DNA from: Mimachlamys varia
Lineage: Eukaryota; Mollusca; Bivalvia; Pectinida; Pectinidae
Direction of reading: 5' to 3'
DNA length: 64,000 bases
Assembly: GCA_947623455.1 (NCBI GenBank)
Contig: OX392535.1
Span: 38,464,688 to 38,528,687, forward strand
The position numbers and the translations under genes are program-made. The notes beneath the pieces are model-generated. The model had not been told where the DNA came from. It made no database searches and saw nothing but the letters and a program-made list of their open reading frames with translations. Of this stretch, positions 12,726 to 63,440 are shown piece by piece (the stretch's first letter is position 1; every line of letters starts with the position of its first letter).

Positions 12726-12844
12726 AACCTCCCAAATCTGTTTAAGGGGGGAAACGTCGGACAGTCGTTGCATATGAAATTGAGATTTCCGCTGTACCCT
12801 AACTGATATACATCTATAAATACAGATTACAAGGCAATACAAAC

Positions 12845-14917
12845 CTCGTCAAGAATAGAATCGTTGTCATCAAGAAAATCCTGGAATCTCACAACAGGGT
12901 TTGTTGTATCCAATGCGGCATACTGGGAGCTGCTGAATGGTTCCGTCTCCTTCCGGCGAGTCACTGCCATCTGATAGCGTGACCAAGACGCGGAAGGCTC
13001 ATTACCGTATCCTTCCGCCAATAGGGACTTTGTCATTCCGCGCGGCAACACGCGATACGACCTGTGTACGCCATATTTGTTGGTTGAGGCATTGTTGTAA
13101 AATGTAAGATACTTTGGTGAATTGAAATCATATTTGTAAGCAGCACTCAACTCATCTGGCTTTACGTCATGACTGAATTTGGTTTGGTGATATTTTTCCC
13201 CGTTGACTTTCGACCAATGGTTATCCACTGGGTCCGGCTTAATATCGAGAGTTGCAAAGCGGTTACTCGTACCCAGAACATCAAGGTCGACTTTGAAATG
13301 AATCAGATGATGGTGGAGACTTCCGACAATAAAATCGTTCAGACGGTATCCGTACGGACTCTCTTCCGGTCTGTAGAAGCTAGTAGATATAAAACCAGTA
13401 GAGACAACTCGAACTTCTAAAGCACCGTTTTGAAAAAAACGGAAGTCAATTATGTAATCGTAGTTCATGACGGTGAGGATGTTCCTAAAGACGAGAAGAA
13501 CGCTCTCCATCCCCTCATACGACGTCTGTGTTAGAGGTTCATAGTTGAAATGTCTGCGATGTGGATCTCCTGTGTTTAGTTCAAATACACAGAAAACATT
13601 TCGCGTAGTGAACGGTTCGTCGGATGTCTCCGTCAGAAACGAGGCATCGATGAATGTCGCGTGGGATGGACAATCTACTCCGGGCACGAGTGGACTAGCT
13701 TTCGGGCCAATCAGATCGCTAGAGTCGAAAAAATCCGCAAACATTTGAGCGGGGTTATTCGCCGAATAGAAAACGCACATCTCCTGTAGGCCTATCTCAT
13801 AAATGATTCGCTGTCCATCATACCGGATGTCGTAGACCTGTGGGCCGTACGCACTGGACATTCTGAAGTCAAATTGCCAGCGCATGTAGGTCACTTGATT
13901 GTATTGCACATTGTATCTCTTTCCATCTGGTTCCACTTGGGCAGGGTTTCTGAGAGGTTCGTCCCAGAACGGCTTACCGCGTTTTTCTGCCCTTGAGAAC
14001 GAAGTGTCATGATTTGGGTCAGGCCAAGATGATTGGGTGCTATTTATAAACACACGGGATTTCAAATCGTCTATTCCATCGTAGGTTGTACCTCTAAACC
14101 ACACCTTTTCAATAGCAAAATCTGAACTCACAGTTTTAACCAAAACAGCAAAGTCTAAATTGTTCAATAAATAGTTTTCTTTGTCACGACTTAGCCAGAA
14201 CCAAAACTTTCTAGTTTGCTCTCCACTGACAGCAGGTGACATTGAAGAGAAATAGGTGAGAATAAGACATTCGGAATCACAGTCAGAGAGAGCTGCACCA
14301 TAAAACGCATATATATGATCCCGGAGTTTCGTGTTGATTTCTTGCTCTGCAAAGCTTGTCGCCTTATCGTATTCAGCCATGTTAATAGGTCGTAGGATAA
14401 AAGGAACTGAAGAAGGTCTTCCAGGAACCTGTTTTATATACGTAGGGTTTGGAAGAGGACCAACTATTCTTTCAATAGCGTCAGGTGGATTTTTAGCACC
14501 TCGAAATATCGTCACAATTGCCTCCCTAGCTGGCTGTTGTCCTCCATTATCTAGATACTCTAATACGTCAGTCTTATTTGGAAGGTAGAGTTCGGCCAGA
14601 TAGCGGTAGTTGGTGTTGATTGTGTTATAGGGAGGCCGGGTGATGTTGAGGGATTCTTCCTGGGCTAGGTAAGACACAAGTCCTTGGATCTCAGCTTTCG
14701 TCAGGTCATGAAACACAGACGGCTCAGAGGGTTCGCCAAGTTGGACCTTACCGTGCTCCACGTATGGACGTTCATGTTCAGATGACTCGTTTTCCTTCTG
14801 GATTTCCGTCGCCAAGTATATTATCACGGCAAGGAATACCACTGACGTCAACAACAGGAACAAAGCCAGAAAGCGCCACCTGTTGGCTCGATCAACTTCT
14901 CCTTTTTCTTCGACCAT
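12845..14917 (-). CDS. Copper amine oxidase (membrane-anchored, semicarbazide-sensitive type), main exon
   Basis: Start chosen at the ATG at 14917-14915, four bases after an acceptor (TTTTTATTGCAG, AG at 14923-14922), so an upstream non-coding exon is implied. The 691 codons encode a short basic cytoplasmic tail, one membrane anchor (about residues 14-37, WRFLALFLLLTSVVFLAV...), then the amine oxidase N2/N3 and catalytic domains on the outside. Expected active-site residues are present: catalytic-base Asp about 398 (FFD), the topaquinone precursor Tyr 486 in MNYDY, and copper ligands His 535 and His 537 in GSLHHHLIHFKVDLDV. The third copper His is in the exon at 1-300. The family oxidises primary amines to aldehyde, peroxide and ammonia. 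The layout resembles AOC3-like enzymes. Exon end GACGAG|GTTTGT, phase 0. Reading past the donor adds only five residues before a stop. Confidence 0.97.
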
Positions 14918-15025
14918 TCTGCTGCAATAAAAAGTGAGTTTGTTATACAAAAGATATCCCGAAACGAGTTCATAAAATATCAAAATATCGAAAAGAGACA
15001 GCAAATGTGTTCTGCTGTTTTAAGG

Positions 15026-28504: not shown

Positions 28505-29308
28505 ATTTGTTTGTGAAACAATACAGACATGAATTAATACTATAAAAATTGTTGTGCCTTAGTCGCACACTCTCCCATAAAATGTCAAATGCACAAATTT
28601 CTACTCATAACACTTTTGCCACAAAACGATCATTTTGATGCATAGTACGGCTAAAGGTCCTCGGCAATCGTCGAGAGCATTAACCTACAGAGTTGTAAAA
28701 CTCTAAAATACAGTTCATTCATAACACGAAAAATAAATAAAGAAAGATTAAAGATAGGTTAATATGAATGCTTACTATTGTTAAGGTTTGGTAGTAAATG
28801 CCCTTCCCTCATTTTATAATCTCAAAGAGGAGCAGACGACCAAATCGTCTGCCTGAACTGGCATCCACAGCTCAGATCTTTCATTATGTGAGATAACAGT
28901 AATACATGTTAAATTCAACATTTTGCAGTGGTAGGACAAATTATTGTCGTTTAATTATAATTTCACAAGAAATATTACGAATTGTTATTTTAAAACGGAA
29001 TATGTAGAATTGTCCTTGCCAATGCAACTGTTAATCTGTATAGAACTTGTATTTGATTTTTTGAGTGACATAATTCCTCTTTTTTGATCACTTTGTTGTT
29101 ATTTTCTTTGTTTATAAGCACACATACATATACTGATCGTTGTTTACAAATATCTTAGAGCTATACAGCAGCGATATGACTTATCTAGGTATCCAACTCT
29201 AATTGGATTGGTCTGCTGGAGGTCAGAAAGGTCAATGGGGCTGTTTTTTGACATAAGGATAGACTATGTTCTAATCCTCACTGCTGGCATATGTATCCTA
29301 TTACTAGA
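28505..29308. other. Unannotated sequence before the G-rich array
   Basis: No supported feature on either strand. Confidence 0.35.
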
Positions 29309-32300
29309 CTAGCGGGGAGGGGGGGGGGGTTACACAGAGAAACTTGGGGGGAGGAGGGGGGGTTACACAGAGAAACTTGGGGAGAGGAGAGGGGGGGGGT
29401 TCCACAGAGAAACTTGAGGGAGTTGGGGGGTTACACAGAGAAACTTGGGGGAGTGGGGGGGGGGGTTACACAGAGAAACTTGGGGGGAGTGTGGGGGGGG
29501 GTTACACAGAGAAACTTGGGGGGAGGAGAGAGGGGTTACACAGAGAAACTTGGAGGGAGGGAGAGGGGGGTTACACAGAGAAACTTGGGGGGAGGAGAGG
29601 GGGGGTTACACAGAGAAACTTGGGGGGGAGAGGGGGGGTTACACAGAGAAACTTGGGGGGAGTGGGGGGGGGGGTTACACAGAGAAACTTGGGGGGAGTG
29701 GGGGGGTTACACAGAGAAACTTGGGGGAGTGGGGGGATACACAGAGAAACTTGGGGGGGAGTGGGGGGGTTACACAGAGAAACTTGGGGAGTGGGGGGGG
29801 GGGGTTACACAGAGAAACTTGGGGGGAGTGGGGGGGATACACAGAGAAACTTGGGGGAGTGGGGGGTTACACAGAGAAACTTGGGGGGGAGTGGGGGGGT
29901 TACACAGAGAAACTTGGGGGGAGTGGGGGGGTTACACAGAGAAACTTGGGGGAGTAGGGGGGTTACACAGAGAAACTTGGGGGGAGTGGGGGGGATACAC
30001 AGAGAAACTTGGGGGAGTGGGGGGGGGTTACACAGAGAAACTTGGGGGGAGTGGGGGGATACACAGAGAAACTTGGGGGAGTGGGGGGGGGGGTTACACA
30101 GAGAAACTTGGGGGGAGTGGGGGGGATACACAGAGAAACTTGGGGGAGTGGGGGGGGGGGGTTACACAGAGAAACTTGGGGGGAGTGGGGGGGATACACA
30201 GAGAAACTTGGGGGAGTGGGGGGGGGTTACACAGAGAAACTTGGGGGGAGTGGGGGGGGATACACAGAGAAACTTGGGGGAGTGGGGGGGTTACACAGAG
30301 AAACTTGGGGGGAGTAGTGGGGGGTTACACAGAGAAACTTGGGGGAGTGGGGGGGTTACACAGAGAAACTTGGGGGGAGTGGGGGGGATACACAGAGAAA
30401 CTTGGGGGAGTGGGGGGGGGGTTACACAGAGAAACTTGGGGGGAGTGGGGGGGATACACAGAGAAACTTGGGGGAGTGGGGGGGGGGTTACACAGAGAAA
30501 CTTGGGGGGAGTGGGGGGGGATACACAGAGAAACTTGGGGGAGTGGGGGGGGGGGGGGGGGTTACACAGAGAAACTTGGGGGGAGTGGGGGGGATACACA
30601 GAGAAACTTGGGGGAGTGGGGGGGGTTACACAGAGAAACTTGGGGGGAGTGGGGGGGATACACAGAGAAACTTGGGGGAGTGGGGGGGTTACACAGAGAA
30701 ACTTGGGGGGAGTGGGGGGGTTACACAGAGAAACTTGGGGGAGTGGGGGGGGGGGTTACACAGAGAAACTTGGGGGGAGTGGGGGGGATACACAGAGAAA
30801 CTTGGGGGAGTGGGGGGTTACACAGAGAAACTTGGGGGGAGTGGGGGGGTTACACAGAGAAACTTGGGGGAGTGGGGGGGGGGGGGTTACACAGAGAAAC
30901 TTGGGGGGAGTGGGGGGGATACACAGAGAAACTTGGGGGATGTGGGGGTTACACAGAGAAACTTGGGGGGGAGTGGGGGGGTTACACAGAGAAACTTGGG
31001 GGAGTGGGGGGGGTTACACAGAGAAACTTGGGGGGAGTGGGGGGGGATACACAGAGAAACTTGGGGGAGGGGGGGGTTACACAGAGAAACTTGGGGGGGA
31101 GTGGGGGGGTTACACAGAGAAACTTGGGGGGGAGTGGGGGGGTTACACAGAGAAACTTGGGGGAGTGGGGGGGTTACACAGAGAAACTTGGGGGGGAGTG
31201 GGGGGGGATACACAGAGAAACTTGGGGGAGTGGGGGGGGGGGGGGGTTACACAGAGAAACTTGGGGGGAGTGGGGGGGATACACAGAGAAACTTTGGGGG
31301 AGTGGGGGGGGTTACACAGAGAAACTTGGGGGGAGTGGGGGGGATACACAGAGAAACTTGGGGGGAGTGGGGGGGAGGGTTTACACAGAGAAACTTGGGG
31401 GGAGTGGGGGGATACACAGAGAAACTTGGGGGAGTGGGGGGGGGGGTTACACAGAGAAACTTGGGGGGAGTGGGGGGGATACACAGAGAAACTTGGGGGA
31501 GTGGGGGGGTTACACAGAGAAACTTGGGGGGAGTGGGGGGGTTACACAGAGAAACTTGGGGGAGTGGGGGGGGGGGTTACACAGAGAAACTTGGGGGGAG
31601 TGGGGGGGATACACAGAGAAACTTGGGGGAGTGGGGGGTTACACAGAGAAACTTGGGGGGAGTGGGGGGGTTACACAGAGAAACTTGGGGGGAGTGGGGG
31701 GGATACACAGAGAAACTTGGGGGAGTGGGGGGGTTACACAGAGAAACTTGGGGGGAGTGGGGGGGTTACACAGAGAAACTTGGGGGAGTGGGGGGGGGGG
31801 TTACACAGAGAAACTTGGGGGGGAGTGGGGGGGATACACAGAGAAACTTGGGGGAGTGGGGGGTTACACAGAGAAACTTGGGGGGAGTGGGGGGGTTACA
31901 CAGAGAAACTTGGGGGGAGTGGGGGGGGGGGTTACACAGAGAAACTTGGGGGGGAGAGGTGGGGGGTTACACAGAGAAACTTGGGGGAGTGGGGGGATAC
32001 ACAGAGAAACTTGGGGGGAGTGGGGGGTTACACAGAGAAACTTGGGGGGAGTGGGGGGGTTACACAGAGAAACTTGGGGGGAGTGGGGGGGGGTTACACA
32101 GAGAAACTTGGGGGGGGAGTGGGGGGTTACACAGAGAAACTTGGGGGAGTGGGGGGGGGGGGGGTTACACAGAGAAACTTGGGGGGAGGAGAGGGGGGGT
32201 TACACAGAGAAACTTGGGGGGGAGTGGGGGGGTTACACAGAGAAACTTGGGGGGAGTGGGGGGGTTACACAGAGAAACTTGGGGGAGTGGGGGGGTTACA

Positions 32301-33449
32301 CAGAGAAACTTGGGGGGAGTGGGGGGGATACACAGAGAAACTTGGGGGAGTGGGGGGGGGGGTTACACAGAGAAACTTGGGGGGAGTGGGGGGATACACA
32401 GAGAAACTTGGGGGAGTGGGGGGGGGTTACACAGAGAAACTTGGGGGGAGTGGGGGGGGGATACACAGAGAAACTTGGGGGAGTGGGGGGGGGGGGTTAC
32501 ACAGAGAAACTTGGGGGGAGTGGGGGGGATACACAGAGAAACTTGGGGGAGTGGGGGGGGGGTTACACAGAGAAACTTGGGGGGAGTGGGGGGGATACAC
32601 AGAGAAACTTGGGGGAGTGGGGGGGGTTACACAGAGAAACTTGGGGGGAGTGGGGGGTTACACAGAGAAACTTTGGGGGAGTGGGGGGGGGTTACACAGA
32701 GAAACTTGGGGGGAGTGGGGGGGATACACAGAGAAACTTGGGGGAGTGGGGGGGTTACACAGAGAAACTTGGGGGGGAGTGGGGGGGTTACACAGAGAAA
32801 CTTGGGGGGAGTGGGGGGGGGGGTTACACAGAGAAACTTGGGGGGGAGAGGGGGGGTTACACAGAGAAACTTGGGGGAGTGGGGGGGATACACAGAGAAA
32901 CTTGGGGGGAGTGGGGGGTTACACAGAGAAACTTGGGGGGAGTGGGGGGGGTTACACAGAGAAACTTGGGGGGAGTGGGGGGGGGGGGTTACACAGAGAA
33001 ACTTGGGGGGGAGTGGGGGGTTACACAGAGAAACTTGGGGGAGTGGGGGGGGGGGTTACACAGAGAAACTTGGGGGGAGGAGAGGGGGGGGTTACACAGA
33101 GAAACTTGGGGGGGAGTGGGGGGGGGTTACACAGAGAAACTTGGGGGGGAGTGGGGGGGGGTTACACAGAGAAACTTGGGGGAGTGGGGGGGGGTTACAC
33201 AGAGAAACTTGGGGGGAGGAGAGGGGGGGTTACACAGAGAAACTTGGGGGGGAGTGGGGGGTTACACAGAGAAACTTGGGGGAGTGGGGGGGGGTTACAC
33301 AGAGAAACTTGGGGGGAGGAGAGGGGGGGGTTACACAGAGAAACTTGGGGGGGAGTGGGGGGGGGTTACACAGAGAAACTTGGGGGGGAGTGGGGGGGGT
33401 TACACAGAGAAACTTGGGGGGGAGTGGGGGGGTTACACAGAGAAACTTG
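29309..33449. repeat. G-rich minisatellite, unit about 30 bp, about 135 copies
   Basis: Core TTACACAGAGAAACTTGGGG followed by G-runs broken by AGTG or AGGAGAG, with unit length drifting with the number of Gs. Units alternate between TTACAC and ATACAC over long stretches, indicating expansion as dimers. The plus strand has no stop trinucleotide in any frame over about 4 kb; this follows from the unit lacking TAA, TAG and TGA and is not evidence of coding. Runs of five or more G in every unit make the plus strand a strong candidate for G-quadruplex structures. Confidence 0.98.
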
Positions 33450-34544
33450 ACATACATGACAAGTAGACTGTAACAAAGTACATAGTGAAAAGGCCTAACA
33501 CAAAACCAAACTACCTATGGTCTCAAAGTTTATTTGATATTTACAGACCAATCAGCGCCACGATAATATTTATATATTGATTAAACTATCAAACAAATTT
33601 ACAATTGTTTTAGTTTTATTCGGTATAATTAAATATTTATGGCCCTCTATGTCGGGACGCATATCCAGAATTGTCTCCCTGGAAAAATAACCGTCTCAGG
33701 AAGGGCCATAATTGTTGAATATATATAGGCCTACAGGAACATAATATTATACAAATGATAAATAACTAAACCGGCTACACCCGTACACTTTCGAAGGGAA
33801 GACGCCAGACAAAACATGACCGTAAATACCATGGCTACTGAACCAGAGAAAAGTGGTAGGCCTAGATGTGACTTGCATGTTAAAGAAGAACGCACAAAAA
33901 AAAAACACATTTTGACGGTGTGAGGTATTCAGACACCATTCACCAATATGTAAGGTTAAAGTAAATCCTAACCTCATATGGCGCAATCCGATGGGTGTTA
34001 TTTTGAGTGTAAATGATATTTGACACAAACGAGAATCGCGTGTCGTCAATGTCAGTAATCTTGTATATGAAGGGTATCCGTGGTTTATGATGAATGTTGT
34101 GTTTTTAAGCTCTTTCAACTTGATAGCTTTTAGAAACATGAACTGTGTAAGACTCTTATATCGGTAACCGATAGCTTCGTTTTGGACGCCATTTTGTTCA
34201 TGAGAGTAATGTGACTTTTCCTGAAATGTCACGGGATAAGTCTTGTGATACACGCTATGTAAAGCACAAACTCACTATGTAGTCTGTTTCTAAGTTCAAT
34301 CTGCATGCCAAAAAACGTATCTACACTGAAACAATAAACCTTTCATAACAAGGGCAAGTCAATTTACATTATACAAGAAAATAATAACAACTATACAAAA
34401 TTAATTTAAGATATATTTTCTTCAAAAAATAAATCAAAGGTTTACCGTACAGTGAGTCAACACAATTACCAAAAAAAAACATCAATTTTATTATATAGCT
34501 ATTGTCGAATACAATGAAGATTTCATCATAAACAAAATCTTTGT
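33450..34544. other. Unannotated sequence with one unrecognised open frame
   Basis: The minus strand is open for 168 codons at 33747-34253, longer than most frames here, but the translation shows no domain, signal or family resemblance, and no splice context supports it. I do not call it a gene. ATTTATGGCCCT / AGGGCCATAATT at 33640 and 33710 are inverted. Confidence 0.35.
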
Positions 34545-42889: not shown

Positions 42890-42998
42890 ATGAAGCATGG
42901 TCACCAATCTTCGATGGGAATAAGATGTATGGCTGAATTACAGCAGGCCTGGAAGCTAATTTTGGTGGCAAATATTTTATTTCTCAAAGTTCAGACTG
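42890..42998 (+). CDS. Discoidin-PAN secreted protein, exon 1 (signal peptide)
   Basis: First coding exon of the five-exon gene 42890-62381 (joined CDS 828 nt, 275 residues). It encodes 36 codons plus one base. Three in-frame Met are possible (residues 1, 9 and 14); Met14 sits best before the hydrophobic stretch WKLILVANILFLKVQT, a typical signal peptide. An acceptor (GTTGAACAG, AG at 42871-42872) lies just upstream, so an earlier 5'UTR exon is possible. The donor is G|GTTCGT, unusual at +3/+4 but with G at +5. The phase-1 end matches the next exon, giving ...KVQT-A-PCNSS, a plausible signal peptidase site. This is the least certain exon: it has no homology support beyond its signal-peptide character and phase. 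Confidence 0.62.
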
Positions 42999-43688: not shown

Positions 43689-43849
43689 CCCCTTGTAACT
43701 CGAGCCTCGTAACAGGACCACTTGGTGTAGAAGACCACGCCCTCACTGGACCATTACCTTACGGCCTCGACCCACGAACTCATCCAAAAGAGGCTAGGAT
43801 TGTTAACCCAGTTAAGTACTACCACGCTTACATAGGATACTACCTTCAG
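43689..43849 (+). CDS. Discoidin-PAN secreted protein, exon 2 (discoidin N-terminal third)
   Basis: Acceptor TTTTGTAATCCAG|CC, donor CTTCAG|GTAAAT. After completing the split codon it encodes residues 38-90: PCNSSLVTGPLGVEDHAL, then ...HPKEARIVNP and AYIGYYLQ. The first Cys (39), the PLGVED motif, the conserved EAR and the terminal YLQ are the opening of an F5/8 type C (discoidin) domain, where families usually read C..PLGME...I.....A.S......A.ARL......YLQVDL. It ends in phase 0, exactly where exon 3 continues VQLKKP. N40-S-S is a potential glycosylation site. The exon is only 161 bp, too short to stand out as an open frame. Confidence 0.85.
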
Positions 43850-46245: not shown

Positions 46246-46374
46246 TTCATGAAAGTGCTTTACCCAGTGTAATTTTGTTTATACATGTTGATACAAGAAA
46301 ATGTTTTTGATATATTTTACAAAGTTAGGAAGTAAGATAATCTTGAAATTGTAAATATTGTTAGTTTTTATTAT

Positions 46375-46908
46375 ATGATATGTGTTGTAATCATGGTTTA
46401 TATTCTTGAAATAATTTTGCTCAGTGGAAATATTGAACGTAACCCAGGTCCCGAACAATCATTATTGCTTTCTGATTTGTCAATCATTCATCAAAATAAT
46501 ATATCATTAGTACATTATAATGTCCAGAGTTTATTACCAAAAGCTTATATCCTATTTAGTGAATTACACCAATACGATATTTTATCATTTACTGAGACGT
46601 AGTTAACGACTACTACAGTGTTATCAAATGAATTGATCTATCTTAAATACCATGAACCATTTATAAGATCACGGGCAAATATAATTGGTAAAGGCATAGC
46701 GGTGTATATAAATAAAAATATTTCAACATTTCGAAACTTAGAATTTGAAATTGTTTATCTTGAATGTGTCGGGATAGAATTACAGATAAATCACGCAGGG
46801 TACTTTCTACAGGCCGCCTAACTCAGGAAGTGAAACTTGGAACTTAATAGACCATTCTATTGATATGGTTACTAACTATATAGGCGGGTGATTTTAAAGA
46901 AAACCAAT
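46375..46908 (+). pseudogene. LINE (non-LTR retrotransposon), endonuclease N-terminal part
   Basis: Encodes LLSGNIERNPGPE, then ISLVHYNVQSLLPK and LHQYDILSFTET, the start of an apurinic-like endonuclease as in CR1/Jockey-type LINEs. The conserved Trp after TET has become a TAG stop (46600-46602). The frame resumes with FIRSRANIIGKGIAVYINK, then the YRPPN-like motif is hit by a stop (YFLQAA, stop, RPPNSGSE), and a one-base shift precedes GDFKENQL. At that point the element is cut by the 2,911-bp insertion. Confidence 0.85.
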
Positions 46909-46910
46909 TA

Positions 46911-49821
46911 CAGTTGAGTGTAAGCTAACCTTTACACCCTAATGCACTAGGAGTGCACTACGTTTAAACTACAGGTAAACTAGTAGTGCACTACGTCCAG
47001 CCAGGTGTGACCACAAAAACCCCTACAGGTAATGGGAAGGTCAATACCTACCTGTGTCCTTACCTGTACAGATGTAATATGATTTACCTGTACTTATGTT
47101 ATACTATTGAAATCATTAGTTTGTCAGTACTTCCTCATATAAGTACAAGAATGAACAATTCTGAGTTTATGCCAGAAGATATATATCATAATACTTTAAA
47201 TAAATTAATTAACTGCTGTCAAAATTTTAAATAAATAATAATTTAGATATACTAACTTATTATTCTTTTTAAAGAAGTAACAATGATTCTTTTCTATTTA
47301 AATATTTGTATTCTACAATTAAATTAAAAGGTATGTGTTCAAATAAAAAATGGTGTAACACATGTTTTATGTTGAAATTATTAAGTTAATCCTACTAAAA
47401 ATATATACAGAAAATAACGTTAACAACAGATTGTAATATAAATAGATATTAGAAGAACATATTCGTACTTAGTATAGTTGTTTCAATCACAAATTACTTT
47501 AAATATTTGACATTAAGAAGCTAGCTGTGCAATATCAGAGACGTACAAGGTTTTATACGTCTCTGGCAATACTACCTACATGTACCAGTATTAGTATTCT
47601 GTTTCACTATACACTCAGGTACAATGCATACGAATGAAAGGTTATATAAACATCAAGTACTAATATAAGAAAAGATTACTTTCACCAGAACATTTAAAGC
47701 CATTTCCTTCTTCATATCAAAATACCAACATACATCTACATGTAATCCAATTGACTGTAATCAATGTTATCATCATTAATCAATTAACAGGCTAGGGCCC
47801 TCAGGCCTTTAATCAGACTTGGCCAGTGATGGCTGTGGGGGAGAGGGAGGTGAGAAATTCACACCTGGCTAACTACAGACAGCCTAGGGGTGTCCCCTAT
47901 CTTGACCTCTGTATGTGAGGATGTGGCCCAGGCAGGTTAGGTACATGTACGTAATTATGCCTGGAGGGTAAAGGATTCTACCTGAAGATCTATATTTGTC
48001 CCTCTTAGTTAGATTTTATATAAGTCATTAGGTTGATTTAAAAGTACAATAAATGTGACTGGCATAGGCTTGACTTTGTTCTAAGTTAGGTTAATATAAC
48101 TGCATATTATTTATTTGTTGTATAATTAGTCTTACAATATAGAATTAATTAAAATGATTCCATTAAACTGACCTTGCTTTTCTTAAAATCATTATAACAT
48201 ATATGCATAAACCTTCAAGTCATATTTAATACAACCTGTAATTGCCTTCAATATTTAGGCCTAAATATTGGAAATGCATCATTTAAAAATACTTTTATAC
48301 TGATAATTAGAATAAAATTAAGTATAATGAATGCTAGGGACTGAGCCAGATAGTATATATTCTCTCCCATATACGTTCCTGATTACACCCAATATAAACT
48401 AGATAATTTTTCAACATTTAACAAGTATATATATGTAAATATTTAGAAATCGAAATGCGTCATTGGATTGTATTCAATCAAGTGTCATAAGATACTTGGT
48501 ATTTTAAGTTAATTATTAAGAAAACCAGAATCTGGTAAAGGACTGATATAGACTTACATTGTTGTCCAATTAAGTATTATTAATTTCAATGTTATTTTAT
48601 GTACTATCAATTTATAATTGTATAATTAAATGTTTTGAATGAAACAAAAAAAATGGATTAAAGTCCTCAAAATATCCACTATTTGAAGGAAAATATGTAA
48701 ATATCTAGATATATTCTCAAAGATTTTTAATTTCATATAAACTTGATAAACCCGAGTAAAAGTTAAATAAGTATTATCATATTTATGATCCTGGTCATAT
48801 CCAGCTTAGCTCTTTATTTATCAAATTTGACCAGTGATATTCAGATGGGAAATTCACACCTCAATTATGTCACTGACAGGCTTACGTCAGCAGGTGTTCC
48901 TAGACAAGGTTGAGACAGGTCAGGTAATTGCCTGAGGCCTGAGGGTCAAATCAAAACATCTGTCCCATACTGAACAATCTGACTAAATTTTAATTTATTG
49001 TTGTATTACTTTTTTTTAACTTCAAATTCTTATATTTATAATAACACTGTTGTATGTGGTGATATATATATATATAAATACCGATCTTAATATAAAAAAC
49101 AATTAAAAATAAAGATTATCAGAACTCTATAGCGCATTCATAAATATATAGATCTGAGGCATGAATGTATTTGATAAAAATATATATCTAGTTTAATTTA
49201 GTAATAAAAGAAAATGTATTTGTTATTTTCGCAATTAGTTTTTACAATATTTAAAAATATACTTCTAAACAAATTATAATCAATAGGTATTCCTTCAATT
49301 GCTCAATATACTTGATTGTAAATTGGTAAATTAATATAAAAAACCGTTAATAGTGTATATTAAATGAAATATAAGACATCAAAACTGCTAGATAAATATT
49401 AATTTTCTATTTTATTTATATGATGCATGCAAGAAATTTTTTGGGAAAATTGTAAGAGTAATTATCATGATTTCACAACTTCTAGTTTTGAAATGAAAGA
49501 AAAAATGTTGTTTGAGAAAAATAACTACATAAGATGCATATATAAACATTAAAGTTATAAATATTAACTAATGATAAGGCCAGCTTCAAAGTACCAGCAG
49601 ACGACAAAGGTGAGGTACAGGTAAAAATCACAGGTAGATGGATGGGACTGCCCATTCACCTGTAGGGATATTTGACCTATATGGGGTTCAGGGTGTAGTG
49701 CACTACTAGTTTACCTGTAGTTTAAATGTAGTGCACTACTAGTTTAAACGTAGTGCACTACTAGTTTAAACGTAGTGCACTACTAGTGCACTAGGTGTAA
49801 ATGTTAGCTTACACTCAACTG
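46911..49821. mobile_element. 2,911-bp TIR element with TA target site, nested in a LINE
   Basis: Terminal arms CAGTTGAGTGTAAGCTAACC and, inverted, CAGTTGAGTGTAAGCTAACA, with similarity for about 80 bp including TTTACACC, GTGCACTACGTTTAAAC and AGGTAAACTAGTAGTGCACTA. TA is present on both outer sides (46909-46910 and 49822-49823). The LINE reading frame before (…ENQL) and after (AINAGRVIDI) is continuous if one TA and the element are removed. TA plus CAGT termini suggest Tc1/mariner-like mobilisation. No frame over 82 codons occurs inside, so no transposase is visible. Two diverged copies of a block with CCAGTGAT...GAAATTCACACCT lie at about 47800-47960 and 48800-48960. Confidence 0.85.
47536..47565. 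mobile_element. Micro-hairpin family 1, insertion c (30 bp)
   Basis: CAGAGACGTACAA ... TTTATACGTCTCTG. Flanks GCAATAT (47529-47535) and GCAATAC (47566-47572) match at 6 of 7. It sits within the 2.9-kb element, making a three-level nest. Confidence 0.7.
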
Positions 49822-49823
49822 TA

Positions 49824-50511
49824 GCTATAAATGCAGGCCGTGTTATTGATATAATGTATAGATATAATTTTGTTCAGCTTGTTGATGAAGCTACTCATTT
49901 TACAGAACATTCATCTTCGCTCTGGGATATATTTATGACATGTAATGACAATTTTGTTAAAAAAGAAATGTTTGTGAATCTTTCTTACCAGCTGATGTCA
50001 GGTATTACTGTCCTGTATACGCTATCCTAGATATTGATCGAACTAAAATATATAACAATTTTGAAAGAATTTGGTTATACGATAAAGGAAACTATCATAT
50101 GTTTCGCGATGCATTGGATGATATTGATTGGACTGATGCATTTGGGAAAAAAAATAACTGTTGATGACCTCGCAATTTTTTTTAGCTCTTTTATTTTATC
50201 TGCTGCAACGAAATATATTCCGATTAAGAATGTGGCGGTAATAGTAATGAATCGCAATGGATGCACAATGAAATTAGGAAATTGATCAGGGCCCGGAAAA
50301 AATTACACAGGAAAGCTAAAACATGCAAAACCCATATAATTGGCAGCGATATAGACAAGCTAGAAATAACTGTGCTATTAGGGGGGCAAAAAAGGAGTAC
50401 ACTTTAAAATTAACTAATAAAATAAAATGTATGTCTACTTCATTACGAGACTGGTGGACACTAACACTTTCACTAATTTTTCAACCAAAAAATCGAACAT
50501 ACCTACATTGA
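49824..50511 (+). pseudogene. LINE, endonuclease C-terminal part and linker
   Basis: Reads AINAGRVIDIMYRYNFVQLV, then THFTEHSSSLWDIFMTCND, the conserved end of the endonuclease (HSSSLLD is normal). After frame changes come YDKGNYHMFRDALDDIDWTD AF, LSAATKYIPIKNV and WQRYRQARNNC...KKEYTLKL, the usual linker before the reverse transcriptase. At least three frameshifts are needed to read it. Confidence 0.8.
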
Positions 50512-50579
50512 CTCATGATAATATAAATTATGTAGTACTATTGAAAAGAAAAAGGTGATTATTTTCTAAGTCAGTCGAC

Positions 50580-51420
50580 AATTAATGACTCAAATGTCCC
50601 AGTCCCTGAAGATATACCTAATTTACCTAATAAACTAGAAACTATCATTATAACTGAACAGGATGTCAAAAATGCCATAAGTATGTTAGATATTTCTAAA
50701 GCTGCGGGTCCGGATAATATAAGTAATATTATTATTAAGAATTATTAAGGAAGCTGAAGTAGGAAGTATCATTACAAATCTCACTTAATTAATTATATAA
50801 CAAATCTTTAGACTGTGGTAGATATCCCGCTATTTGAAAAGTTGCAAATGTCACACCTGTATATAAAAAAGGTAATAAGTCTGTTGTGTCGAATTATAGA
50901 CGTATACCTTTAATAGATATTGTTGGTAAGCTAATGGAAAGTTGTATTTTTAAACATGTATATAATTTTCTTAGGGGCACTAATTTCTTCACCAAATATC
51001 AGTCTGGTTTCACACCTGGGAATTCGGCTATATATTAATCAGTTACTTGACATTAATAATGATACTGGGAGGGCTTTGGTAAAGAATTATAGCAGTATTT
51101 TGTGATATAAGCAAAGCATTTGACCGAGTTTGGCAAAGGGGTCTTATCTATAAGTTAAAATCTGCAAGTATTTCAGGAAAATTATTAACTTGGTGTGAAA
51201 ATTATTTATCAGATAGAAGTCAAAAAGTTGTAATAAATGGGATATCCTCAAGCTCTCAAAATATCAAAGCGGGTGTACGACAGGGTTCTATCTTAGGTAC
51301 ATTGTTTTTTCTTACATTATATTAATGATATTGTTGTTGACATTAAATATAAAATTAAACTATTTGCTGATTACACTGCATTATACATTATTGTTGACAA
51401 TCCTGTCACTACTGTTAATA
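50580..51420 (+). pseudogene. LINE, reverse transcriptase domain (inactivated)
   Basis: Recognisable in pieces: VPEDIPNLPNKLE, ITEQDVKNAISMLDISKAAG PDNI, VTPVYKKGNKSVVSNYRRI, YQSGFTPGNSA, KAFDRVWQRGLIYKLK, QKVVINGISSSSQNIKAGVR QGSILG and LFADYTALYI. The catalytic FADD box reads FADY, so one metal-binding Asp is lost. Several stops and frameshifts interrupt it. The order of motifs is that of CR1/Jockey-like RTs. Confidence 0.85.
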
Positions 51421-52402
51421 CTATAAATAACGATCTTTCTAAAATACAGACATGGGCAGACAAGTGGTTAGTGAAATTCAATCCGGACAAAACCAAAACA
51501 CTATTAATAAGTAGGAAAACTACACGAGTATATTATGATCCTATAACTATAAATAAAACTGATGTAACTAGAGTAAGTTCTCACAATCATTTAGGTGTAT
51601 TGGTCTCACATTGATTACATATTAAAGAAAACATTACCAAGATTAGCTGTACTTCGTAAACTAATAAACACTCTAGATAGAAATTCTTTTCAAACTATTC
51701 ATTTTGCTTTCGTTATACCAATTCTAGAATAATCAGATGTGGTTTGGGACAACATACCTAACTACATATGTCAAAACTTAGAAAATATTCAAATTGAGGC
51801 TGCCAGAATAGTAACAGGTGCAGCAAAACTGTTAAATATTAATCTATAATATAAAGATTTAGACTGGGATAAACTAGATAAACGGCGTGAAAATCATAAA
51901 ACCATACAATTTCATAAAATGTATCATAATAGTCCCTAGTAAAATATCAGAATGCCATAGTTCATAACACTAGACATTCAAATAATCAACATTCATTTAA
52001 CTGTAGAACTAAATTTTGCAAAGACTCGTTTTTAAACTCTTCAATACAATTTTGGAATGCATTACCATTAGAAGTTCGTGAAAATCTGTACGTAAATGTC
52101 CTTAAAAAATCTACAAAATATAAAAAATTGATTCCTTCGTATTTTAATACTGGATGTAGAAACTTACAAATATTACATGCAAGATTAAGATTAAAATGTA
52201 GTAATTTGAATCAGCATCTATTTATGAGAAAGTTAGAGTTAAGCCCCTTATGTAGATGTGGACTAGTCGAAAGTAATTATCACTTTCTTCTAATATGTAA
52301 CAAGTATACTAGAATAAGACAAAATACATGTACTTTAGATAGCCTAAACATTAACCTTACTGAAAATACCTTACTATGGGAAAGTACTGAATATACTCAC
52401 TA
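51421..52402 (+). pseudogene. LINE, thumb and C-terminal region
   Basis: Includes WADKWLVKFNPDKTKTLLIS, VIPILE, stop, SDVVWDN, NLENIQIEAARIVTGAAKL, and the C-terminal block NLQILHARLRLKCSNLNQHL, LSPLCRCGLVESNYHFLLIC NKY. The last 91 codons (52128-52402) are open. The region past the stop to about 53075, ending ATGACAAATGACAAATGATA, is probably the LINE 3'UTR. Confidence 0.85.
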
Positions 52403-53453: not shown

Positions 53454-53600
53454 GTACAACTGAAAAAGCCATCTGTTATTACGGGATTTATAACACAAGG
53501 GAGAACGGGCAATTGGCAGTTTGTTACAGAATACAAAGTACAGTACAGTAACTATGGCACCACGTGGCAGAATATCACCGACAGTGACGGGAATGTGAAG
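53454..53600 (+). CDS. Discoidin-PAN secreted protein, exon 3 (discoidin middle)
   Basis: Acceptor ATTTTCCAAG|GTACAACTG, donor AATGTGAAG|GTGAGA; 147 bp, phase 0 at both ends. Residues 91-139: VQLKKPSVITGFITQGRTG, WQFVTEYKVQYSNYGTTWQ, NITDSDGNVK. The QGR, V..YKVQYS..G..W and D..GN features are diagnostic of F5/8 type C domains. N130-I-T is a potential glycosylation site. This is the best supported exon of the gene. The open frame extends 55 codons upstream through the acceptor without resemblance to the family, which supports starting the exon here. Confidence 0.94.
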
Positions 53601-54345: not shown

Positions 54346-54639
54346 AGAAGGAAAATGAACACCCTGTATCTTAAGTTAATGTACAACTATTTGATCTCCG
54401 CTTTTAAGATGTGTTGGAACTCGAAAACCAAAAACAGGTTCTAATTGTCTGTAATGAGGGCCATTAATACCATTTGTAATGTACGTAGTGTGCTTCCACG
54501 GAGATCGCACCCTCGATCCATAGGTTCCTCGCCAGACGCTAGAAATTCCCTCTAGCTCGAAGCTAGAAATGTATCTTATTAATTAATCATGACATTGTGT
54601 ACAATTTAAATCTGCCACATTTAAACTTTATTTATTTTA

Positions 54640-54866
54640 CAACAATTATGAAACAAGCTATACAACTTATATTAATCACTCTTGTTGGCCGGATGTTAGC
54701 GCTCGAGGGGTCTTATTGTGGGAGGAAACCGGAGTACCCGGAGAAAACCCACGTGGTCGGGCAGGTGACCCCGTACCTTTTCACGTCCGATCGGGGAATC
54801 GAACCCCGGCCGCCTTGGTGAAAGGCAAGTGCGCTATCCACTGCACCACCCGACCACCCTATCGTA
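54640..54866 (-). mobile_element. tRNA-derived SINE (same type as 37275)
   Basis: Minus strand: GGTGGTCGGGTGGTGCAGTG, GGGGTTCGATTCCCCGATCG, GACGTGAAAAGGTACGGGGT, CACGTGGGTTTTCTCCGGGT, CCGGTTTCCTCCCACAATAA. Close match to the copy at 37275-37526. Absent from the mirror position in the right arm of the palindrome. Confidence 0.8.
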
Positions 54867-55247
54867 GTTAGGGAAAAAACCATGATATTATTTATGCTAG
54901 AACAGCGCAGTTAGAATAGTTTGTACATTTCCACTGCATTCAAGAGGTTTTCATCAAACGGAGAATACATGACATTTCATCAGTATAATGTACTAAATAT
55001 GAATACCGTGGAGTCAGCTATATTATTTTTTTTAGACCTTAATTTCCCAAAAGGCGCATGGGGAACCACCGGAAGAGCACAAAGTGTTTACAGATTCAAA
55101 CCCCGCGACGCTTCGCGCCACTTGGGGGTTTGAAAAAAATAATTAACGAGAGTGAAATTAATTCCATATCAAATAACCAATAGTCGTGTAACCTGTTTGT
55201 ACCACAATAATATTAGACTAAGTCGGAAGTGGCAGTGTTGTTTTCTG

Positions 55248-55350
55248 GGCCCGTATTCATGAAACCGTTCTCGTGCTCAAGTATGGATACTGTGCTCAAG
55301 CTTGCTTTCTTGAAACTCACCTAGATTTTGTCAAGATCCAAAAGTCAATT
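55248..55350. mobile_element. Half copy of the 34660-type foldback MITE
   Basis: GGGCCCGTATTCATGAAACC, GCTCAAGTATGGATACTGTG, CTTGCTTTCTTGAAACTCAC match the left half of the element at 34660; the right half is missing and sequence of the palindrome's right arm begins at about 55345. Confidence 0.7.
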
Positions 55351-56041
55351 GTTTTTTTCAAACCCCCATGGAAGCGGCGCGGGTTTTGAATCTGTAAAGA
55401 CTTTGTGCACTTCTGTTGCTTCCCCATGCATGAAAGCCTTCTGAGAAATTAAGGCCGCTTACGGTCTACAAAAATAACTGACTCCACGGTATTCATATTT
55501 AGTACATTATACCAGTGAAAATGTCATGAATTCTCCGTTTGATGAAAACATCTTGAATGCAGTGGGGATGTACAAACTATTCTTACTGTGCTGTTTTAAA
55601 TAGCCTGCCTGCAGAAACCCGTTCAAAATGGCTTTTTGTTGTCAAGCGTGCACTAAAACATGGCGTCACAAATTACGCTACAAACTCCCGCGTTTTTCTG
55701 ATGAAGGCAGGATCATGATTTTTTACTTGGCGGTACGTGAACAAATTAATAAAACAAAAATTTTAAAAAATATCATGGATTTCATCCTAAAGAAGATATA
55801 AATGTGGCAGATTTAAATTGTACATATGATTTTGAATTAAGATACATTTCTACCTTTGAGCTAGAGGGAATGTTTAGCGTACGTCTAGCGAGGAACCTAT
55901 GGATCGAGGGTGCGATCTCCGTGGAAGTACACTACGTACATTACAAATGGTATTCATGGCCCCCGTTGCAGACAATTAGAACCTGTTTTTGATTTTTGAG
56001 TACCAACACATTTAAAAAACGGAGAGCAAATAGTTGCACAT

Positions 56042-56675: not shown

Positions 56676-56729
56676 TGCATCATCATCATCATCATCATTA
56701 TCATCATCATCATCATCATCATCATCAAT

Positions 56730-56793
<64 letters not shown>

Positions 56794-56843
56794 ATTTCAA
56801 CATCATCATCAACATCATCATCATCATCATCATCATCATCAAC

Positions 56844-56876
<33 letters not shown>

Positions 56877-57223: not shown

Positions 57224-57374
57224 CTATTTACCGGCAATATTGACGCTATTGGTTTGGCCAAGTCGATCCTAAATACTTCGATCACCGCTTCATACATCCG
57301 GGTAACCCCGACATCTTGGAACTATCATCTGGCTTTTCGTCTTGAAATCCTGGGATGTCCAATTATCCAACCTG
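57224..57374 (+). CDS. Discoidin-PAN secreted protein, exon 4 (discoidin C-terminal third)
   Basis: Acceptor TTATGTCTGTAG|CTA, donor AACCTG|GTAAGTAAGT, 151 bp, in phase 0, out phase 1. Residues 140-189: LFTGNIDAIGLAKSILNTSI, TASYIRVTPTSW, HLAFRLEILGCP, IIQP. The GN.D...., ITA.YIRV.PTSW and .RLEILGC motifs complete the F5/8 type C domain, whose Cys39-Cys184 pair brackets 146 residues, the normal length. N156-T-S is a potential glycosylation site. The donor is a perfect consensus and is the first unit of the minisatellite at 57371-61575. If this donor is not used the frame stops after two more residues (G-K). Confidence 0.94.
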
Positions 57375-60300
57375 GTAAGTAAGTACACGGTAAATAAGTA
57401 AACATGGTAATTAAGTAAACATGGTAAGTAAGTAATCATGGTAAGTAAACCTGGTAAGTAAGTAAACACGGTAAGTAAGTAAACCTGGTAAGTAAGTAAA
57501 CACGGTAAGTAAGTAAACATGGTAAGTAAGTAAACACGGTAAGTAAGTAAACCTGGTAAGTAAGTAAACATGGTAAGTAAGTAAACATGGTAATTAAGTA
57601 AACATGGTAAGTAAGTAATCATGGTAAGTAAACACGGTAAGTAAGTAAACCTGGTAATTAAGTAAACATGGTAAGTAAGTAATCATGGTAAGTAAACACG
57701 GTAAGTAAGTAAACCTGGTAAGTAAGTAAACATGGTAATTAAGTAAACCTGGTAAGTAAGTAATCATGGTAAGTAAACACGGTAAGTAAGTAAACCTGGT
57801 AAGTAAGTAAACCTGGTAAGTAAGTAAACCTGGTAAGTAAGTAAACACGGTAAGTAAGTAAACATGGTAAGTAAGTAAACCTGGTTAGTAAGTAAACATG
57901 GTAAGTAAGTAAACATGGTAATTAAGTAAACATGGTAAGTAAGTAATCGTGGCAAGTAAACCTGGTAAGTAAGTAAACCTGGTAAGTAAGTAAACACGGT
58001 AAGTAAGTAAACACGGTAAGCAAGTAAACATGGTAAGTAAGTAAACACGGTAAGTAAGTAAACATGGTAAGTAAGTAAACATGGTCAGTAAGTAAACCTG
58101 GTAAGTAAGTAAACATGGTAATTAAGTAAACCTGGTAAGTAAGTAAACATGGCTAATAAGTAAACCTGGTAAGTAAGTAAACACGGTAAGTAAGTAAACA
58201 TGGTAAGTAAGTAAACATGGTAAGTAAGTAATCATGGTAAGTTAACCTGGTAAGTAAGTAAACACGGTAAGTAAGTAAACCTGGTAAGTAAGTAAACACG
58301 GTAAGTAAGTAAACATGGTAATTAAGTAAACATGGTAAGTAAGTAATCATGGTAAGTAAACATGGTAATTAAGTAAACCTGGTAAGTAAGTAAACCTGGT
58401 AAGTAAGTTAACCTGGTAAGTAAGTAAACATGGTAAGTAAGTAAACATGGTAGTAAATAAACCTGGTAAGTAAGTAAACATCGTAATTAAGTAAACACGG
58501 TAAGTAAGTAAACATGGTAAGTAAGTAAACATGGTAAGTAAGTAAACATGGTAAGTAAACATGGTAAGTAGGTAAACCTGGTAAGTAAACATGGTAAGTA
58601 AGTAAACCTGGTAAGTAGGTAAACACGGTAAGTAAATAATCATGGTAAGTAAGTAAACCTGGTAAGTAGGTAAACCTGGTAAGTAAGTAAACACGGTAAG
58701 TAAATAATCATGGTAAGTAAACATGGTAAGTAAGTAAACCTGGTAAGTAGGTAAACCTGGTAAGTAAGTAAACCTGGTAAGTAAGTAAACACGGTAAGTA
58801 AGTAAACATGGTAAGTAGGTAAACCTGGTAAGTAAACATGGTAAGTAAGTAAACCTGGTAAGTAGGTAAACCTGGTAAGTAAGTAAACCTGGTAAGTTAG
58901 AAAACCTGGTAAGTAAGTAAACATGGTAAGTAAGTAAACCTGGTAAGTAAGTAAACACGGTAAGTAAGTAAACATGGTAAGTAAGTAAACATGGTAAGTA
59001 AGTAAACATGGTAAGTAAACATGGTAAGTAGGTAAACCTGGTAAGTAGGTAAACCTGGTAAGTAAGTAAACCTGGTAAGTAAGTAAACACGGTAAGTAAG
59101 TAAACATGGTAAGTAAGTAAACACGGTAAGTAAGTAATCATGGTAAGTAAGTAAACATGGTAAGTAAGTAAACTTGGTAAGTAGGTAAACCTGGTAAGTA
59201 AGTAAACTTGGTAAGTAAGTAAACTTGGTAAGTAGGTAAACCTGGTAAGTAAGTAAACACGGTAAGTAAGTAAACACAGTAAGTAAGTAAACCTGGTAAG
59301 TAAGTAAACACGGTAAGTAAGTAAACACGGTAAGTAAGTAAACATGGTAAGTAAGTAAACACGGTAAGTAAGTAAACATGGTAAGTAAGTAAACATGGTA
59401 AGTAGGTAAACCTGGTAAGTAAACATGGTAAGTAGGTAAACCTGGTAAGTAAACATGGTAAGTAAGTAAACCTGGTAAGTAAGTAAACACGGTAAGTAAG
59501 TAATCATGGTAAGTAAGTAAACATGGTAAGTAAGTAAACTTGGTAAGTAGGTAAACCTGGTAAGTAAGTAAACACGGTAAGTAAATAATCATGGTAAGTA
59601 AACATGGTAAGTAAGTAAACATGGTAAGTAAGTAAACATGGTAAGTAAACATGGTAAGTAGGTAAACCTGGTAAGTAAACATGGTAAGTAAGTAAACCTG
59701 GTAAGTAGGTAAACACGGTAAGTAAATAATCATGGTAAGTAAACATGGTAAGTAAGTAAACCTGGTAAGTAGGTAAACCTGGTAAGTAAGTAAACACGGT
59801 AAGTAAATAATCATGGTAAGTAAACATGGTAAGTAAGTAAACCTGGTAAGTAGGTAAACCTGGTAAGTAAGTAAACCTGGTAAGTAAGTAAACACGGTAA
59901 GTAAGTAAACATGGTAAGTAGGTAAACCTGGTAAGTAAACATGGTAAGTAAGTAAACCCGGTAAGTAGGTAAACCTGGTAAGTAAGTAAACCTGGTAAGT
60001 AAGAAAACCTGGTAAGTAAGTAAACATGGTAAGTAAGTAAACCTGGTAAGTAAGTAAACACGGTAAGTAAGTAAACATGGTAAGTAAGTAAACATGGTAA
60101 GTAAGTAAACATGGTAAGTAAACATGGTAAGTAGGTAAACCTGGTAAGTAGGTAAACCTGGTAAGTAAGTAAACCTGGTAAGTAAGTAAACACGGTAAGT
60201 AAGTAAACATGGTAAGTAAGTAAACACGGTAAGTAAGTAAACACGGTAAGTAAGTAAACATGGTAAGTAAGTAAACACGGTAAGTAAGTAATCATGGTAA

Positions 60301-61575
60301 GTAAGTAAACATGGTAAGTAAGTAAACTTGGTAAGTAGGTAAACCTGGTAAGTAAGTAAACTTGGTAAGTAAGTAAACTTGGTAAGTAGGTAAACCTGGT
60401 AAGTAAGTAAACACGGTAAGTAAGTAAACACAGTAAGTAAGTAAACCTGGTAAGTAAGTAAACACGGTAAGTAAGTAAACATGGTAAGTAAGTAAACACG
60501 GTAAGTAAGTAAACATGGTAAGTAAGTAAACATGGTAAGTAGGTAAACCTGGTAAGTAAACATGGTAAGTAGGTAAACCTGGTAAGTAAACATGGTAAGT
60601 AAGTAAACCTGGTAAGTAAGTAAACACGGTAAGTAAGTAATCATGGTAAGTAAGTAAACATGGTAAGTAAGTAAACTTGGTAAGTAGGTAAACCTGGTAA
60701 GTAAGTAAACTTTGTAAGTAAGTAAACTTGGTAAGTAGGTAAACCTGGTAAGTAAGTAAACCTGGTAAGTAAGTAAACACGGTAAGTAAGTAAACACGGT
60801 AAGTAAGTAAACCTGGTAAGTAAGTAAACCTGGTAAGTAAGTAAACATGGCTAATAAGTTAACATGGTAAGTAAGTAAACACGGTAAGTAAGTAAACCTG
60901 GTAAGTAAGTAAACCTGGTAAGTAAGTAAACACGGTAAGTAAGTAAACCTGGTAAGTAAGTAAACCTGGTAAGTAAGTAAAAACGGTAAGTAAGTAAACA
61001 CGGTAAGTAAGTAAACCTGGTAAGTAAGTAAACATTAGTAAGTAAGTAAACCTGGTAAGTAAGTAAACATTAGTAAGTAAGTAAACCTGGTAAGTAAGTA
61101 AACCTGGTAAGTAAGTAAACCTGGTAAGTAAGTAAACCTGGTAAGTAAGTAAACATGGCTAATAAGTTAACATGGTAAGTAAGTAAACATGGTAAGTAAG
61201 TAAACATGGCTAGTAAGTAAACATGGTAGGTAAGTAAACCTGGTAAGTACAGTTGTAAACCTGGTAAGTAAGTAAACACGGTAAGTAAGTAAACATGGTA
61301 AGTAAGTAAACATGGTAAGTAAGTAAACATGGTTAGTAAGTAATCCTGGTAAGTAAGTAAACATGGTAAGTAAGTAAACATGGTAAGTACAGTAGTAAAC
61401 CTGGTAAGTAAGTAAACACGGTAAGTAAGTAAACATGGTAAGTAAGTAAACACGGTAAGTAAGTAAACATGGTAAGTAAGTAAACATGGTAAGTAAGTAA
61501 ACAGGGTAAGTAAGTAAACACGGTCAGTAAGTAAACACGGTAAGTAAGTAAACACGGTAAGTAAGTAAACATGAA
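57371..61575. repeat. 17-bp minisatellite made of splice-donor copies, about 250 copies
   Basis: Unit CCTGGTAAGTAAGTAAA, with CCTG, CATG or CACG variants, occasional 13-bp short units (GTAAGTAAACATG), and GTAGG, ATTAAG or ATCATG variants. It starts exactly at the exon 4 donor (CCTG|GTAAGTAAGT), so the exon-intron junction itself is the first unit. Blocks of about 1.1 kb are duplicated (58640-59060 and 59745-60165). Long open frames on the minus strand occur because the unit has no stop in that direction; the plus strand has TAA in all three frames of each full unit. Confidence 0.97.
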
Positions 61576-62121
61576 TACGTCACGACCAAATACTGAATAG
61601 TTAGTAATTATAAGTGCAAATATATAAAATGTGAATTGAAAAGTGTTTAACTTTGTAACAGCCCTTCTTTGGAATACATAGCTGACTGTAATGATTTAGA
61701 ATAGCTGTACAATTATTAAAATCATGTTTTGATGACAATTCAAACAATTATGGCAGTTGACGTTACTAAAGTAGAAGCCACATTTAAAATAAAGTGATAT
61801 GCAGTACAGTGCTAAAATTGACTTTTCATTGGACTGTATGGATGTTTTTACTCTAAGTCAATATTACGTATGACGTCATAATCATTGCGACTTCACCGTG
61901 CCTCACTGTACATTCCATACTTTATCAAGATAGATATAATGCAATTTCAGTTTTTTGCAAACAAATTTGGCCAATATGGTGATATGCCTACCTGATAGAA
62001 TCTAAAATATTGACCTCGAGCTTCGCCATCGGTCATTATTGGAATCTACAAGGTCGGTGTAACACCATATTGACCTCACCATAATTGAATCTAACAAAGG
62101 CATTTATTGCTGTACATTCAG
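61576..62121 (+). other. End of intron 4
   Basis: Non-repetitive AT-rich sequence up to the acceptor TTATTGCTGTACATTCAG; nothing else recognised. Confidence 0.6.
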
Positions 62122-62381
62122 AACTACGCCACACTTGTTGGGAGGTACACTACGTCACATGGATCCCCAGTGAAGGCATTTTTAGTACAACAAGGGCCAA
62201 CATTGGCGAGTGTGGAAAGGAGTGCCACCGACGTGATGCGTGCCAGGCGTTCACCTTCAACCTTGAGTCTGGGCAATGCCAGGGACATCCGCCTTCTTCT
62301 GTGGTGAATGCAACAGCAATTGCAACTGCTGATGCACACAACATGCTTCGTGTTTTTAAAAAGAAGGAAGATTGTGCTTAA
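62122..62381 (+). CDS. Discoidin-PAN secreted protein, terminal exon (PAN/apple-like tail)
   Basis: Acceptor GTACATTCAG|AA; entering in phase 1 it forms Glu190 with the last base of exon 4 and encodes residues 191-275 to a TAA stop at 62379-62381. Six Cys (195, 220, 224, 230, 242, 274) lie in an arrangement C..(24)..C-x3-C-x5-C-QAFTFNLESGQC, which resembles a PAN/apple module; the family usually binds protein or carbohydrate ligands outside the cell. The match is by Cys spacing and the AFTFN strand only, so the domain call is moderate while the exon call is strong. N252-A-T is a potential glycosylation site. Confidence 0.88.
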
Positions 62382-62520: not shown

Positions 62521-63440
62521 AAGTCGTCACTGTCAGCCATTGTTGTGTTGTCTGTTATATATCGTGATGTCAGACTGGACCCACAATGCCTTGTAGACGC
62601 GTCATTGCCAGCCATTGTGGTGTTGCCTGTAATATATCTTGTTTCAGACTGGACCCACAATGCCTTGTAGACGCGTCATTGCCAGCCATTGTGGTGTTGC
62701 CTGTTATATATCTTGTTTCAGACTGGACCCACAATGCCTTGTGGACGCGTCACTGTCAGCCATTGTTGTGTTGTCTGTTATATATAGTGATGCCAGACTG
62801 GACCAACAATGACATGTAAACGCGTTATTGCCAGCCATTGTTGTGTTGTCTGTGATATACCGTGATGCCAGACTGGACCCACAATGCCTTGTAGACGCCT
62901 CACTGTCAACCATTGTTGTGTTGTCTGTTATAGATCTTGTTTCAGACTGGACCCACAATGCCTTGTAAACGCGTCATTGTCAGCCATTGTTGTGTTGCCT
63001 CTAATATATAGTGATGCCAGACTTGACCCACAATGCCTTGTAGACGCGTCATTGTCAGGCATTGTTGTGCTGTCTGTGATATACCGTGATGCAAGACCGG
63101 ACCAACAATGCCTTGTAGACGCGTCATTGTCAGCCATTGTTGTGCTGTCTGTGATATACCGTGATGCCAGACTGGACCCCCAATGCCTTGTAGACGCCTC
63201 ACTGTCAGCCATTGTTGTGTTGTCTGTTATATATCTTGTTCCAGACTGGACCCACAATGCCCTGTAGGCGCCTCACTGTCAGCCATTGTTGTGTTGTCTG
63301 TTATATATCTTGTTCCAGACTGGACCCACAATGCCTTGTAGACGCCTCACTGTCAGCCATTTTGTGTTGTCTGTTATATATCTTGTTCCAGACTGGACCC
63401 ACAATGCCTTGTAGACCCCTCACTGTCAGCCTTTTTTGGA
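62521..63440. repeat. 74-bp minisatellite, about 12 copies, in the 3'UTR
   Basis: Unit CAGACTGGACCCACAATGCC TTGTAGACGCGTCATTGTCA GCCATTGTTGTGTTGTCTGT TATATATCTTGTTC with variants (CGTGATGC, AAACGCG, GACGCCTC). Short open frames on both strands through it are by-products. Confidence 0.95.

Follow-up and report, generated by a model that had tools for sequence, protein, structure and literature searches.

How does a splice donor come to stand at the head of a long minisatellite, and which donor is used when many near copies of it follow in the same intron? This question is raised by a gene in a stretch of 64,000 nucleotides from the scallop Mimachlamys varia (GenBank assembly GCA_947623455.1, contig OX392535.1, positions 38,464,688 to 38,528,687), here called the window, within which all positions are counted. 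At the junction of exon 4 and intron 4 of this gene lies a 17-bp minisatellite, which is real and unusually large. It is probable, in our judgement, that the minisatellite was seeded at the exon 4 donor, that it is now neutral and that its first copy is the donor in use; the direction of origin, the choice of donor and the neutrality are what we infer from the observations given below.

The junction and the origin of the repeat unit

The five exons listed below can be joined into one open frame of 275 residues plus a stop codon, all four introns being GT-AG and their phases consistent. The product aligns without gaps to P0001, a lactadherin-like protein from Mizuhopecten yessoensis, with 192 of its 275 residues identical. 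A search with exons 3-5 returned three protein relatives among 48 candidates, two from M. yessoensis and one from Pecten maximus. As all three come from scallops, a lancelet source, to which the published amphioxus repeats might have pointed, was discarded. In the joined exons 3-5, Pfam gave F5_F8_type_C at 62.6 bits (cut-off 28.2) and PAN_1 at 26.1 bits (cut-off 21.4), both domains being present in one predicted protein. Judging from its sequence, the gene is probably lactadherin-like (F5/8-type-C plus PAN), with five coding exons. Among solved structures, the matches were C-type domains (factor VIII, factor V, neuropilins and others), which shed no light on the array. The features concerned are the following.

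42890..42998, plus strand: exon 1, counted from the proposed start codon and not from the transcript 5' end; aligned to P0001 from the first Met; phase 1 donor
43689..43849, plus strand: exon 2, in which the F5/8-type-C (discoidin) domain begins; CAG acceptor, CAG|GTAAAT donor, frame and P0001 alignment
53454..53600, plus strand: exon 3, encoding the central part of the discoidin domain; Pfam F5_F8_type_C on the containing open reading frame; frame joins exon 4
57224..57374, plus strand: exon 4, encoding the last part of the discoidin domain; 151 nt, entered in phase 0 and left in phase 1
57375..57380, plus strand: exon 4 donor GTAAGT, within the first repeat unit; frame to exon 5 and gap-free fit to P0001
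57369..61573, plus strand: minisatellite with a 17-bp unit in about 252 copies; 225 donor-like GGTAAGT sites in addition to the real donor
58641..60525, plus strand: duplicated block inside the array; two copies, 58641-59422 and 59744-60525, offset by 1103
61574..62121, plus strand: unique remainder of intron 4, up to the exon 5 acceptor; ATTAAA at 61715, AATAAA at 61788
62122..62381, plus strand: coding part of exon 5, PAN-like domain and stop codon; Pfam PAN_1 E 7.7e-06, frame and P0001

Phase, domain content and the full-length relative concur that exon 4 of this discoidin gene should end at the donor which an earlier note on this DNA had named. The array begins at 57369, six bases within exon 4, which ends at 57374 with a phase-1 donor. 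The end of the exon reads CAACCTG|GTAAGTAAGTA, with six exonic bases lying inside the first unit, while the seventh (C) does not fit. The most frequent form of the unit, with 61 of the 253, is this same junction, AACCTG|GTAAGTAAGTA; the tandem repeat starts over the exon-intron boundary, its unit carrying both exonic and intronic junction bases. On the plus strand of the window outside the array, one or other of the tails of the four main unit forms is met at 3 of 681 G|GT sites and at 3 of 3476 GT sites; by the former count, a chance sharing of the exon tail would have a frequency of about 0.4%. In the protein alignment, P0001 and P0002 run gap-free across the junction and P0003 has a one-residue gap alongside. 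All four aligned proteins keep the Gln whose codon supplies the AA of AACCTG, which favours the direction from exon to array; at the next position the scallop gene has Pro, against Ser, Leu and Ser in the three relatives. From these comparisons the direction from exon to array is the likelier, the reverse being less favoured. Since exonic and intronic junction bases are both in the unit, an origin from the exon 4 donor is very likely and the best reading, in line with the earlier proposal that the array had expanded from the splice donor.

In the mechanism that we propose, the exon 4/intron 4 junction, already bearing a short GTAA run (CAACCTG|GTAAGTAAGTA), would have been duplicated in tandem to form the seed; growth would have proceeded by slippage and block duplication, and the present state would be one of neutral evolution. 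Tandem Repeats Finder describes the array at 57369-61573 with period 17, 252.4 copies, 86% matches and 5% indels, and by wrap-around alignment it can be divided into 253 units, with 40 different forms among them, the final unit being incomplete. The unit is composed of three GTAA runs plus ACCTG. After the commonest form, AACCTGGTAAGTAAGTA (AACCTGG.., 61 units), come AACATGGTAAGTAAGTA (AACATGG.., 54 of 253) and AACACGGTAAGTAAGTA (AACACGG.., 42 of 253), and 22 units have 13-bp forms with one GTAA lost. The earlier claim of a junction repeated about 250 times is therefore right as to the array, with its approximately 252 copies, and overstated as to the junction, whose exact form is found in only 61 of 253 units; the precise unit then given, CCTGGTAAGTAAGTAAA, occurs 60 times in the array. 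The two copies of the internal block (58641-59422 and 59744-60525) cover 782 bases with 21 mismatches at an offset of 1103 and show that the array grew by large duplication as well. Comparison of the array with itself by BLAST gave alignments of 87-90% across much of its length, which did not sharpen the block duplication. Long open reading frames on the minus strand within the array (up to 454 aa) were set aside as by-products of a stop-poor 17-bp repeat.

Donor-like copies and the consequences of their use

The array has 226 plus-strand occurrences of GGTAAGT, the real donor among them, whereas the remainder of the window has 3; for GTAAGT the corresponding numbers are 408 and 12. Beyond the real donor, the array thus holds 225 extra copies of G|GTAAGT. 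Duplex energies were calculated with the 5' end of U1 small nuclear RNA, giving -10.7 kcal/mol for the real donor, -9.6 for the exon 3 donor and -14.0 for a perfect site, while the main G|GTAAGT unit forms ranged from -10.7 to -10.9 kcal/mol. Leaving the real donor aside, 221 of the 709 GT sites of the array pair with U1 at least as strongly as it does, and, with the real donor counted, 225 reach or exceed the exon 3 donor in this calculation. In calculated pairing, then, the copies match the true donor, yet they are not perfect sites: CAG|GTAAGT has a plus-strand count of zero in the array, and to speak of some 250 perfect U1-binding sites goes too far. The RNA at 57340-57600 is unusually open in folding calculations, all 200 of 200 shuffled versions folding at least as well. 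On the minus strand, the array (57369-61573) has 81 acceptor-like CAG|G sites, rich in pyrimidines, which mirror the CTG|GTAAG donors.

Immediately past the junction the frame reads GGT AAG TAA, an in-frame stop directly after exon 4, so that every downstream donor would include the stop, whatever the copy number. An mRNA with such a stop would be subject to nonsense-mediated decay. The use of any downstream donor would therefore add the TAA, with one of two outcomes: a protein that stops behind its discoidin domain and lacks PAN, or degradation of the mRNA. In the proposed mechanism the spliceosome would take the first, exon-proximal donor, and the 225 donor-like copies downstream would mostly be bypassed.

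If the copies had been kept for a function, their donor core might be expected to vary less than the remainder of the unit, and column change counts over the array units gave no sign of such preservation. Distinct changes numbered 10 in the 7 columns of the donor core and 9 in the 10 remaining columns (P 0.35), counts which omit the common variants A/C/T at column 4 and T/C at column 5, together with all gaps; as both columns lie outside the core, the omission makes the rest look less variable, and adding their main variants gives 10 against 12. Counted by unit form, changes were 17 in the core and 19 in the rest (P 0.50), and for changes seen at most four times there were 16 copies in the core against 9, the core being less conserved (P 0.025, with units that are not independent). 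Repeat units are mutually non-independent throughout, which makes any such test of selection a weak one. The role as donor decoy or U1 sponge that the earlier note had suggested finds no support here, the donor core being no more conserved than the rest of the unit.

Known junction repeats and competing explanations

The kind of structure is known, the scallop array being a very large example with at most a putative function; the following comparisons draw on parts of the papers cited. In amphioxus, minisatellite-like repeats of exon-intron boundaries, many with copied splice signals, have been called 'mirages' (Adh3, globins, TnC, PGBD5; PMC3087553, PMC3902484), the PGBD5 case being described and TnC cited in PMC3902484. 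They are unstable in length, with regular splicing reportedly undisturbed (PMC3087553, PMC3902484). Both the mirages and the scallop array are tandem repeats of an exon-intron boundary, although the scale differs: about 252 copies of 17 bp here, as against 3 or 6 of 150-160 bp in the globin BflGb6; in Adh3 the units measure 10-72 bp. In human ABCA7, a variable number tandem repeat in intron 18 has a 25-bp unit from a C-rich region and comprises 12 to about 427 units, the exon 18 donor being the two bases with which the unit begins (PMC5954066). Retention of one unit (about 2%, on a reading of 'respectively') is independent of length, whereas skipping of exon 19 increases with it (PMC5954066). 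Both arrays start at an exon donor, adjoin the exon and reach hundreds of copies; however, the scallop unit has exonic bases, none being mentioned for ABCA7 in the text consulted (PMC5954066), and the ABCA7 length effect on skipping was measured, while the scallop array is known from sequence alone. In human IFI6 (6-16), a minisatellite offers multiple donors, two downstream units being said to act as such (PMC4526556, citing Turri 1995); these are said to yield different protein isoforms, while the scallop downstream donors would all truncate through the in-frame TAA. The view that no standard description of such a structure exists is thus superseded by these three cases. No closer case appeared in the parts consulted of PMC3618361, PMC2572611, PMC12783039 (earthworm intron minisatellites), PMC2812944 (human tandem repeats that change gene structure) or PMC4039745 (intronic minisatellites of C. 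elegans), and no scallop junction minisatellite was among the literature matches listed, judged on titles and abstract openings and mostly without subscription papers.

For a seeded, neutral array read past by the spliceosome, the amphioxus repeats, reported as harmless to regular splicing, offer support by analogy. Several points weigh against this reading: the exon-tail match comprises five informative bases only, the donor used and the order of events are deduced and not observed directly, and the selection test behind neutrality is weak, with non-independent units and the most variable columns omitted. Moreover, neutrality should not be assumed when the donor-spanning array of ABCA7 changes splicing with its length, nor bypass when IFI6 is said to use downstream units. 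An unrelated GTAA-type minisatellite might instead have begun within the intron and come to overlap the exon, either through chance or because the exon tail was converted. Minisatellites are frequent in the window, where the five arrays with at least 24 copies of a unit of at least 17 bp make up 13.8 kb of the 64 kb (21.6%); the three GTAA runs of the unit could point to a GTAA microsatellite as its root, and the Pro at the tail of exon 4 is absent from the three relatives. Nevertheless, exonic bases are found in the unit, with a chance of about 0.4%, and the array starts inside the exon though some 550 intron bases lie beyond it, so that this origin appears quite improbable.

As regards function, the array could act as a length-dependent brake, with downstream donors competing or the array disturbing the joining of exon 5, giving truncated or decaying mRNA according to copy number. 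The 221 array sites equal to the real donor in calculated U1 pairing, the same in-frame TAA met from every downstream donor and the open RNA around the junction are consistent with it, as are the one-unit retention and length-correlated exon 19 skipping of ABCA7 (PMC5954066) and the two IFI6 units acting as donors (PMC4526556). However, the donor core is no more conserved among the units; in ABCA7 length altered skipping of the next exon, not unit retention, and the exon in that position here contains the stop codon and appears to be the final one; and the amphioxus cases are reported without disturbance of regular splicing. A brake is thus unlikely. Decidedly so, too, is a variable splicing rheostat built from the array's own donor copies, whose number would set the share of PAN-retaining protein, with differences between individuals; with the TAA in frame after the junction, each downstream unit would be a 'poison' donor. 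It is also known that U1 small nuclear ribonucleoprotein can guard introns from early polyadenylation (telescripting) or hold RNA in the nucleus. Dense U1-like sites followed by ATTAAA (61715) and AATAAA (61788) in the same intron would suit such a platform, but the support comes from motif counts, made without a control, two signals of polyadenylation type in about 550 AT-rich bases are unsurprising, and the donor core again shows no greater conservation than the rest of the unit; this role is highly improbable.

Under the preferred reading, that of a neutral array seeded by the exon 4 donor, the locus probably extends junction-spanning minisatellites to a mollusc and speaks for splice donors as possible seeds of such arrays. 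With 225 donor-like sites behind one exon, it is also an extreme natural case for asking how the spliceosome chooses the right one among equal donors.

Sequence surroundings of the gene

Larger arrays in or beside the gene are a 42-bp one (intron 2), a CAT one (intron 3), the 17-bp one (intron 4) and a 75-bp one (after the stop codon), the 17-bp array being the only one that touches a splice site. The (CAT)66 array at 56678-56876 ends about 350 bases before exon 4, which thus lies between two tandem arrays. The 75-bp array (12 copies, 62525-63438) starts 144 bases past the stop codon and before an AATAAA at 63467, and is perhaps part of the 3' untranslated region. Intron 3 also holds, at 54402-56018, a large imperfect inverted repeat, probably a fold-back element, whose 8 pairs of arms (25-137 nt, complementarity 77-92%) are nested within 1.6 kb; an extra stretch in one arm, at about 54690-54860, may be tRNA-SINE-like (SINE, short interspersed nuclear element).

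In intron 2, 46336-52400 contains pieces of a probable non-LTR (long terminal repeat) retrotransposon: Pfam RVT_1 matches 51083-51322 above its cut-off (E 1.4e-08), and no Pfam match was obtained for 46336-46599 or 50838-51035. Elsewhere in the window, a G-rich 32-bp array of 125 copies (29314-33449) lies in a plus-strand open frame of 1391 aa (29291-33466) with no Pfam match, and a 725-aa open reading frame on the minus strand at 12827-15004 corresponds to a copper amine oxidase (Pfam E 5.2e-94).
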